Assembly: GCA_028283345.1 (NCBI GenBank)
Contig: JAPOGE010000003.1
Span: forward strand, 1 to 46,381
Source of the DNA: Candidatus Poseidoniales archaeon
Lineage (GTDB): Archaea > Thermoplasmatota > Poseidoniia > Poseidoniales > Poseidoniaceae
Direction: 5' to 3'
DNA length: 46,381 nucleotides
Positions 44,645 through 46,381 of the stretch are shown in pieces. The notes beneath the pieces were generated by a model that did not search any database, was not told the origin of the DNA, and worked only from the letters and a program-made list of their open reading frames with translations. A program made the position numbers and the translations under genes. Each line of letters begins with the position of its first letter. The stretch's first letter is position 1.

Positions 44645-45433
44645 ATGCGTATCGTCACGTGGAACGTCAACGGCATCCGGGCGGCGATTCGCAAAGGTCT
44701 GGATGAATTCGTCGAGCGAATCGCCCCCGACATCCTCCTGCTGCAGGAGGTGCGGGCGTTTGAGGAGCAACTCCCCAATGGTTGGAAGCCAGAAATGGAC
44801 GAAACAGTTTGGAATCCGGCTGAGAAAAAGGGCTACTCGGGAACAGCGACTTGGGCGAATCGAGAATTCGTCGAAATCGGCCGAGGGATGGAATCGTCAT
44901 TGGACCGAGACGATTCGGAAGGTCGAATCATTCACACCAAACATCCGTTCGCCAACACTTCTCTACATTGTATCAACGTCTACCTCCCCAGCGGCTCGAG
45001 CAAGGAGGAGCGGCAGTTGTACAAGGAGGGCTGGATGGAGGATCTGCTGAACTGGGCACAGCGTTTCACCGACCACGATGAGCCGGTGCTATTGTGCGGC
45101 GACCTGAATATCGCCCATACCGAGAACGATATCTGGAACCCTTCCGGAAACCGTTTCACCTCGGGCTTTCTCCCGCAAGAGAGAGAGTGGTTCAGCAGAT
45201 TACTGGCCAGCGGCTGGCACGACCTGTTCAGGATTAAGGTCGGTGACCAAAAGGGACCCTATTCATGGTGGTCCAATCGTGGCCAGGCCCGTGCTAAGGA
45301 CCGCGGCTGGCGCATCGACTATGTCCTGGCCAATGCCGTGGCGCGGCCAATGCTTGCAGGTGCTGAGATAATGCGAGAAGGTGGATTGGTGGTCAGCGAC
45401 CACGCTCCGGTGATAATTGACTTGGCCGAATAG
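44645..45433 (+). CDS. xthA: Exodeoxyribonuclease III / AP endonuclease
   Basis: MRIVTWNVNGIRAAIRKGLDEFV, ILLLQEVRA, GYSGTATWA, VLLCGDLNIAHTENDIWNP, YSWWSNRGQARAKDRGWRIDYVLA, VVSDHAPVIIDL. Confidence 0.96.
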   Translation: MRIVTWNVNGIRAAIRKGLDEFVERIAPDILLLQEVRAFEEQLPNGWKPEMDETVWNPAEKKGYSGTATWANREFVEIGRGMESSLDRDDSEGRIIHTKHPFANTSLHCINVYLPSGSSKEERQLYKEGWMEDLLNWAQRFTDHDEPVLLCGDLNIAHTENDIWNPSGNRFTSGFLPQEREWFSRLLASGWHDLFRIKVGDQKGPYSWWSNRGQARAKDRGWRIDYVLANAVARPMLAGAEIMREGGLVVSDHAPVIIDLAE

Positions 45434-45482: not shown

Positions 45483-45599
45483 ATGGAGAGCGACGGTATA
45501 CCTGGGTTTGAATTTTGGATAGGGGTGGCTTCTATATTGTTGGCCGTTTTTTACACTTATAGAAATCAAGTAATTAATCACCAGACTGAATTTGAATAG
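45483..45599 (+). CDS. Tiny ORF (38 aa) resembling an orphan PGF-CTERM-type tail
   Basis: Manual translation MESDGIPGFEFWIGVASILLAVFYTYRNQVINHQTEFE*: PGF followed by one hydrophobic helix and a basic residue. Confidence 0.35.
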   Translation: MESDGIPGFEFWIGVASILLAVFYTYRNQVINHQTEFE

Positions 45600-45616
45600 C
45601 CAATAAAAATGGCGTA

Positions 45617-45647
45617 TCCCAACATAGGTCACCCTATGTTCCTGGGA
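45617..45647. terminator. Strong inverted repeat/hairpin: AACATAGG-TCAC-CCTATGTT, extendable with TCCC/GGGA past a 3-nt bulge
   Basis: Direct reading of 45621-45640 (perfect 8-bp stem, 4-nt loop); function as a terminator is a guess. Confidence 0.5.
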
Positions 45648-45667
45648 AAAACGTGTTAAAATCTCGG
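45636..45667 (+). repeat. Direct repeat R1 copy 1: ATGTTCCTGGGAAAAACGTGTTAAAATCTCGG
   Basis: 30/32 identical to 46330-46361. Confidence 0.95.
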
Positions 45668-45696
45668 CGCGAGCACTCTACATTGAGAAGCATAAA

Positions 45697-45781
45697 GCGT
45701 GCTCGTGCCTCAGGAATATTGAATTCTACTGTACTTCGCACTTCCTTCGCCACTGCGTGGCTCAGTCCAGTGCTCACCTCC
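45697..45781 (-). repeat. Inverted copy of the 38.27-38.42 kb repeat family
   Basis: Reverse complement reads gaggtgagcactggactgag...ggaagtgcgaagtacagtag...tcctgaggcacgagcac; first 20 and central 13 nt nearly identical to 38270-38320. Confidence 0.88.
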
Positions 45782-45784
45782 CGA

Positions 45785-45803
45785 GTTTAGACGCACAAGC
45801 GTC
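45785..45803 (+). repeat. Direct repeat R2 copy 1: GTTTAGACGCACAAGCGTC (hairpin GACGC-ACAA-GCGTC)
   Basis: 19/19 identical to 46362-46380. Confidence 0.95.
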
Positions 45804-45832
45804 GAATATCACCAGAAATACGGAAAGGTCAG

Positions 45833-46291
45833 TTAGTTATCGTCCATCTTCTTGGGAAATGGCCAACTATCTGGACTCATCCTGGAGTAACGCTTATACC
45901 ACCAAAATACCATGATAATGGCATAAACAGGCATTTGCATTACAAATAATACATGACCGCTGTTATTCCAGTCGAAATATTCTCCTTTCTTCCACATCCA
46001 TGTATAAATCTCCACCGCCCAAAAGAGCCACACGACTGCCCCGGTTAGTAACATCAAACCTTCAAAATAGTAAGCCCCTTTAATCCACGCTTTCGCATTT
46101 ACCATACATTCTGCACAAAACCTTGGTTTCGTATCAACAGTAACTTCCACACCACAGGATCTGCAGTGCAGATGGCCGTCTTGTAGTGAAATTCTGTCAC
46201 GGACTATAGGAGGTAGCATCGCTGACTGTTCGTCTTCGGCCATACCAATCAAAATGTCGGGTAAGGTTGCTACAAATAGTATTTTCATCAT
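45833..46291 (-). CDS. Zinc-ribbon membrane protein (CxxC...CxxC plus two TM helices), unknown function
   Basis: LHCRSCGVEVTVDTKPRFCAECMVNAKAW, then YYFEGLMLLTGAVVWLFWAVEIY and GHVLFVMQMPVYAIIMVFWWY. Start reset because the track start (46330) lies beyond a repeat. Confidence 0.6.
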   Translation of the reverse strand: MMKILFVATLPDILIGMAEDEQSAMLPPIVRDRISLQDGHLHCRSCGVEVTVDTKPRFCAECMVNAKAWIKGAYYFEGLMLLTGAVVWLFWAVEIYTWMWKKGEYFDWNNSGHVLFVMQMPVYAIIMVFWWYKRYSRMSPDSWPFPKKMDDN

Positions 46292-46307
46292 TTCAGGGAT
46301 TTGAGGT

Positions 46308-46321
46308 GACGCACAAGCGTC
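46308..46321 (+). repeat. R2 core hairpin GACGCACAAGCGTC, additional copy
   Basis: Exact 14-nt match to the R2 cores at 45790-45803 and 46367-46380. Confidence 0.93.
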
Positions 46322-46329
46322 CAGAACCA

Positions 46330-46380
46330 ATGTTCCCGGGAAAAACGTGTTAAAATCCCGGGTTTAGACGCACAAGCGTC
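46330..46380 (+). repeat. R1 copy 2 plus adjoining R2 copy 2: ATGTTCCCGGGAAAAACGTGTTAAAATCCCGG + GTTTAGACGCACAAGCGTC
   Basis: Direct reading; R1 and R2 are directly adjacent here but about 117 nt apart in the first occurrence. Confidence 0.95.
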
Positions 46381-46381
46381 C

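Follow-up and report, generated by a model that had tools for sequence, protein, structure and literature searches.

The right-hand end of the window (46,381 nt, the entire contig C135 of G000, a 2.1-Mb, 91%-complete MAG of 201 contigs) is probably the edge of an integron-like array of gene cassettes that rests on dif-like sites in a marine Group II archaeon and depends on an enzyme whose identity is unknown. Its assignment to Candidatus Poseidoniales (marine Group II) is an inference that agrees with gene content and genome sizes. The earlier note on this DNA had proposed a gene-cassette array bracketed by repeats, a reading that was largely right and can now be sharpened to a dispersed 28-bp site centred on a hairpin. 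No paper describing such a system in Poseidoniales was found in the open-access literature.

Little is understood of gene flow in marine Group II archaea, which are abundant and uncultured. If real, a system of cassettes at several loci would explain why small membrane, transport and metabolic genes come and go quickly and why Poseidoniales assemblies tend to break at the sites, and it would mean that integron-like arrays can rest on Xer-type sites in Archaea. The 28-bp site can serve as a query for searching long-read metagenomes and can be tested with XerA.

Repeats and probable cassettes at the contig end

The left border of the array is a conserved chromosomal gene on the forward strand, the xthA-like exonuclease III gene (44645-45433), which has 93% DNA identity to its counterpart in the sister genome G001 (locus L108) until the identity stops 8 nt past the stop codon. 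Between xthA and the first long repeat, a forward open reading frame (45488-45601) possibly encodes a short membrane peptide (MESDGIPGFEFW...) and is missing at this location in G001. The first copy of the long repeat, box A (45633-45667, forward), ends in approximately 16 nt that resemble the 3′ half of the tRNA-Glu T-arm, and a geneless unit (45652-45783, forward) consists of a tRNA-Glu 3′ remnant and the flank that follows it, matching that of the intact tRNA-Glu(TTC) gene on contig C182 at 91% identity. Three forward copies of the 28-bp site follow. Site 1 (45783-45810, core 45790-45804, matrix score 30.8) and site 2 (46301-46328, core 46308-46322, matrix score 29.0) enclose a cassette of approximately 518 bp with a single gene, which runs antisense to the sites (45833-46288, reverse strand) and encodes an orphan zinc-ribbon protein of approximately 151 amino acids with two transmembrane segments and no Pfam match; an alternative upstream start would extend this reading frame to 46330. 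The second copy of box A (46327-46361, forward) constitutes a 59-nt geneless mini-unit between site 2 and site 3 (46360-46381, core 46367-46381), the latter being truncated by the end of the contig (matrix score 33.6, with the missing bases taken as N). An Rfam search returned tRNAs only.

The repeat coordinates in the earlier note were all correct, and both repeat families are far above chance in a shuffle test. Its 32-nt repeat is real and extends in truth to the 35 nt of box A, the two copies being 91% identical; its 19-nt repeat is found at 45785-45803 and 46362-46380, and the hairpin core GACGCACAAGCGTC starts at 45790, 46308 and 46367, which makes three copies as claimed. In 100 dinucleotide shuffles of the window, 0.01 copies of the hairpin core were expected with one mismatch allowed (three found) and 0.01 copies of a 20-nt core of the long repeat with three mismatches allowed (two found). 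The array does run off the edge of the window, in that contig C135 itself stops within the repeat.

The proposal would have been refuted if the repeats were found only here, if they were scattered at random positions without any link to small ORFs, or if the unit were fixed in all relatives, and these checks favoured a cassette array. G000 has 13 copies of the hairpin core with no more than one mismatch and seven of the 20-nt core of the long repeat, and none of either reversed pattern; the copies are intergenic and share one direction on each contig; the sister species G001 carries other cargo 3′ of xthA, and comparison between genomes locates the end of homology at the hairpin. No relative of the zinc-ribbon membrane gene was detected in 113 other genomes of the family, in Pfam, in PADLOC or among viral contigs.

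The 28-bp site and its distribution

The site consists of a left arm (approximately KKGTNYRGACG), the centre CACAAG and a right arm (approximately SGTCCRNACYC), that is, two imperfect 11-bp inverted arms around an asymmetric 6-bp centre, and this is the layout of a Xer (dif) site. In a dif site, inverted repeats of 11 nt flank a 6-nt spacer, and cleavage occurs at the spacer ends (PMC8371274), and in dif-type sites the inner palindrome is highly conserved and the arms are unequal (PMC6449649). Identification of the site as an integron attC was rejected in favour of this 11-6-11 layout.

The 46 copies identified come from eight Poseidoniales genomes, which represent four genera in two families: G000 and G001 (genus g1), G022, G030, G036 and G042 (g6), G038 (g10), and G289 (g17, of the second family). 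G000 was searched by pattern, which located copies on contigs C32, C42, C46, C115, C135, C151, C163 and C182; a later search added C193. An exact match to GACRCACAAGSGTCC is present in 11 of 320 genomes. The remaining genomes of the order are without the site except for single hits that look coding, such as those in G037, G164 and G228, which were set aside as chance matches. A viral origin was likewise rejected: the 14 matches of a 16-mer on viral contigs carry unrelated flanks, box A and the two commonest right flanks have no matches on viral contigs, and phage records are also without matches.

Information content was computed after related flanks had been removed, with 36 left and 30 right flanks kept. 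Conservation reaches position 21 on the right (A18, C19 and C21) and approximately position -4 on the left (R0, Y-1, T-3 and G-4), beyond which it falls to zero or background; the left end of the site is approximate, its two outermost columns being weak. Neither column -2 nor column 17 carries information, so that the two mirror each other, and over seven columns the left side mirrors the complement of the right with a mean profile correlation of 0.66, compared with 0.02 to 0.56 in shifted registers. Because the columns outside the 15-bp core played no part in finding the sites, their conservation is an independent result, whereas the invariance of CACAAG is partly imposed, the centre having been largely within the search pattern. 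Within the hairpin, only 28 of 44 sites can form stem pair 4-11, without compensation in the others; the remaining stem pairs are nearly invariant. Compensating hairpin pairing was rejected as the basis of conservation, and the inverted repeat probably gives rise to the hairpin incidentally. Extended tail-head cruciforms can be drawn for a few sites only (on G038:C32 and G000:C182) and are not general.

Exchange of flanks and variation between genomes

When the alignments between genomes were inspected for internal ends, nine of 38 ends lay within 10 nt of the core, where approximately 0.5 would be expected (P of approximately 7e-10 under uniform placement); the loci had been selected for containing sites, and the ends are not fully independent. 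Exchange of flanks at the site is seen in individual comparisons. On the left side, the crtISO loci of G000 and G001 are 97% identical over 616 nt up to position +15 and unrelated beyond the site, and the left flank at a DsbA-like gene is 86% identical between G030 and G022 until it stops at +18. On the right side, flanks are alike from core base 1 between G000:C151 and G030:C61 (141 nt, 91%), between G042 and G036 (230 nt, 93%) and between G022 and G036 (89 nt). A DUF4190 cassette is common to G000 and G022, of two genera, and its 412 nt of homology also have core base 1 as their exact start.

The most clear-cut example is the junction on G000:C193, where 113 nt on the left align with contig C42 (88%) and 153 nt on the right with G001:C116 (92%); the overlap of these two alignments is precisely the 15-bp core. 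An overlap of 15 bp is shorter than the usual k-mers of assemblers and too short for ordinary homologous recombination. The C193 joint is hard to explain as a misassembly because its overlap is below those k-mer lengths; less trust can be placed in joints within box A, a longer repeat.

In all ten contigs with at least two sites, every site points in one direction. The sites are intergenic, and the genes between them run in either direction relative to the site. Nineteen of 44 sites lie no more than 600 nt from a contig end, compared with 6.9 expected. Module order varies within genus g6: G022 has DsbA, DUF4190, a zinc ribbon and a 430-aa gene, G030 has DUF7669, a zinc ribbon and amt, and G036 has the 430-aa gene and then other cargo. 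The amt gene is present in only two of 82 genomes of the family, with a site on either side in G000 and bounded by sites in G030, where the right-hand one is degenerate and overlaps the stop codon; the two copies are 87% identical, compared with 65-74% for core segments of these genera. At the xthA locus, G001 has box A approximately 20 nt past the xthA stop codon and then different cargo, and the window has in addition approximately 190 nt, the tRNA-Glu 3′ remnant and the membrane-gene cassette. Cargo elsewhere includes a short-chain dehydrogenase, a TauD-like dioxygenase, a methyltransferase, a choline kinase, a SAP-domain protein and many unknown membrane proteins. All of the genomes are MAGs and the variation is observed between species, not from reads at strain level; because most are fragmented at the sites, whole arrays and any integrase platform are not visible.

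These arrays are similar to those of integrons and CALINs, including archaeal ones (PMC9668308), in being one-directional, in carrying short, diverse and often orphan genes with a shared site, in having geneless units, and in lying at the contig ends of MAGs. They differ in having neither the attC consensus and geometry nor IntI, in occupying several dispersed loci instead of one platform, and in having genes that run either way relative to the site.

As envisaged here, cassettes would be short units of one, two or no genes between directly repeated 28-bp sites, and a Xer/integrase-type tyrosine recombinase would bind the two arms, with strand exchange at either end of the 6-bp centre. Since the CACAAG centre is asymmetric, sites would be expected to join head-to-tail only, so that units would leave as circles between direct sites, enter at any site, and build one-directional arrays. 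What the sequences show is the site and its direction, the exchange of flanks there, differences between species and movement across genera; the class of the enzyme, the circular intermediate and the exact base of crossover are inferences. A fuller version, in which a dedicated and as yet unseen tyrosine recombinase acts on double-stranded dif-like direct sites and collects and reorders small genes and exchanges them among Poseidoniales of different genera and families as a separately arisen archaeal counterpart of the integron, is offered as a tentative hypothesis with somewhat less than even chances.

Candidate enzymes and competing explanations

The only PF00589 protein of G000 is XerA-like (C115:612-1697); its best model is the archaeal XerA family NF040815, at 195.5 bits under a cut-off of 220. 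The earlier note had called for a search for a linked integrase, and none was found: no dedicated recombinase was detected near any site, and no PF00589 match was seen inside a site-bounded unit. The Y1 transposase family PF01797 is absent from all 14 genomes searched, with control genomes positive. No serine recombinase is linked to the sites; the one copy in G000 (C179) has no site nearby, and the distribution of these enzymes does not follow that of the sites. Solitary and closely similar serine recombinase genes (MADHIA.KSTFTSA...) were observed in unrelated places in different Poseidoniales genera (L170, L171 and L173, on G042:C20, G038:C13 and G009:C15, respectively), the G038 copy being split into two overlapping frames.

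The cassette array with an enzyme named would have the host Xer protein moving units bounded by copies or mimics of the chromosomal dif, which is possible but rather unlikely. The site resembles dif in its 11-6-11 layout, its conserved inner palindrome and its one stronger and one weaker arm (PMC8371274, PMC6449649), and XerA, the sole tyrosine recombinase of G000, is encoded once per genome in nearly all genomes of the family. However, XerA is universal and the sites are patchy, and in G011, a relative assembled as a single contig that has XerA, the 2.0 of 2.06 Mb searched (97%) are without the site, the best match being coding and near the random maximum; no chromosomal dif of the 28-bp sequence was found in this part of G011, a result that does not extend to the dif of the window's own genus. 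Resolution of archaeal chromosomes by XerA and dif (PMC8371274) offers the same site architecture and an available enzyme, but dif is a single-copy site of the chromosome, whereas the 28-bp sites are multicopy, patchy and absent from this near-complete relative. The pdif modules of Acinetobacter plasmids are alike in having a 28-bp 11+6+11 site with a conserved inner palindrome and unequal arms, and discrete gene modules in varied contexts with no integrase of their own. In contrast, the Poseidoniales sites are on an archaeal chromosome, have another sequence, share one 6-bp centre in the copies found, and are all direct where pdif sites are described as inversely oriented; there is a single XerA in place of XerC and XerD, and its use is unproven. 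Because XerA fits the layout but the XerA-bearing G011 is without the site, the enzyme is left open as XerA, an integrase of the tRNA-Glu type described below, or a protein lost in assembly gaps. The xerA gene of G001 (G001:C85:17930-18388) was observed to contain an in-frame TAG and has an open frame of just 191 aa; either the assembly is probably in error here or the copy has decayed.

An origin from integrative elements that insert at tRNA-Glu by means of an integrase of their own, left behind as tandem remnants with the repeats as att scars, is improbable. The tRNA-Glu 3′ fragment at 45652-45783 and the T-arm-like end of box A are as this explanation would have them, an integrase occupies the tRNA-Glu locus of G030:C43 and G036:C88, and in G038 a site lies approximately 110 nt downstream of that locus. 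Yet most sites are away from tRNA genes and have no tRNA fragment, the conserved 28-bp site is not tRNA sequence, and the stretches with the integrase have no site. Islands that target tRNA genes, such as Charybdis integrated in Poseidoniales (PMC12324425), share with the cassettes the host order, the tRNA-Glu 3′ fragment and the T-arm-like box A, but the cassettes lack both integrase and structural genes, and the majority of sites lie away from tRNA genes. The tRNA-Glu-adjacent tyrosine integrase of G030 and G036 has 22% identity to XerA and no 28-bp site in the stretch that was read; it is a candidate for acting on the sites in trans.

A dispersed REP-like or terminator-like hairpin at gene ends, with joints produced by homologous recombination or misassembly, would account for the hairpin-like, intergenic copies in fragmented MAG assemblies, but it is very unlikely given joints that share only the 15-bp core, the lack of Y1 transposase in 14 genomes, the two conserved arms about an asymmetric centre, and the uniform direction. 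Least credible of all is a true integron (CALIN) with divergent attC sites that recombine as folded single strands and with an integrase that dropped out of the assembly: it would suit the array layout, the small and often orphan cargo, the variable flanks and the many sites per MAG, and archaeal CALINs are known (PMC9668308), but the attC geometry RYYYAAC ... GTTRRRY occurs in none of the 46 sites (0.3 expected after shuffling), the only recombinase of G000 scores 99.8 bits against the IntI model TIGR02249 with its cut-off of 265, inner stem pair 4-11 is often unpaired without compensation, and genes run in both directions.

Returning to the cassette array on dif-like sites, its geneless units include one of 59 nt in the window (box A, between sites 2 and 3), one of 60 nt on C163, and one of 39 nt around ACATCCACTCAGGAGACTCCAAC that occurs twice in G030 and also in G036. 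Box A acts like a small unit without genes, or else like an extension of the site. A second kind of joint, at AAATCCCGG, must exist because two copies of box A run straight into a tRNA-Glu 3′ end (at 45668 in the window and on C32); this joint is unexplained. In two sister genomes, another element of approximately 59 nt (GCGTGGGGGGCCCTTTGATTCA.GGG, 93% identity) stands ahead of the 28-bp site (L025, 1060-1004; L107, 5610-5675), which together with box A suggests several classes of left flank. Between two GGGTTCGGAC repeats, G000 has approximately 90 nt (L024, 9640-9560) that are lacking in G001 (L109, 9653-9610); this small insertion is at a box A joint where no 28-bp site can be recognised.

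An integration hot spot lies at the tRNA-Glu gene that follows a DedA-like gene, with a XerA-related tyrosine integrase in two genomes (L145, G036:C88, 4030-5657; L147, G030:C43, 1510-3182) and in G030 an additional small MetJ/Arc-like protein; the 3′ end of this tRNA-Glu recurs as a fragment in the window. Downstream of tRNA-Glu genes, the sequences GTGCTCGCG and GTGCTCGTG are complementary to the 3′ acceptor strand of the tRNA itself (window 45668-45700; L025, 5976-5930; L051, 1566-1610), forming an alternative hairpin that could compete with folding or processing of the tRNA.
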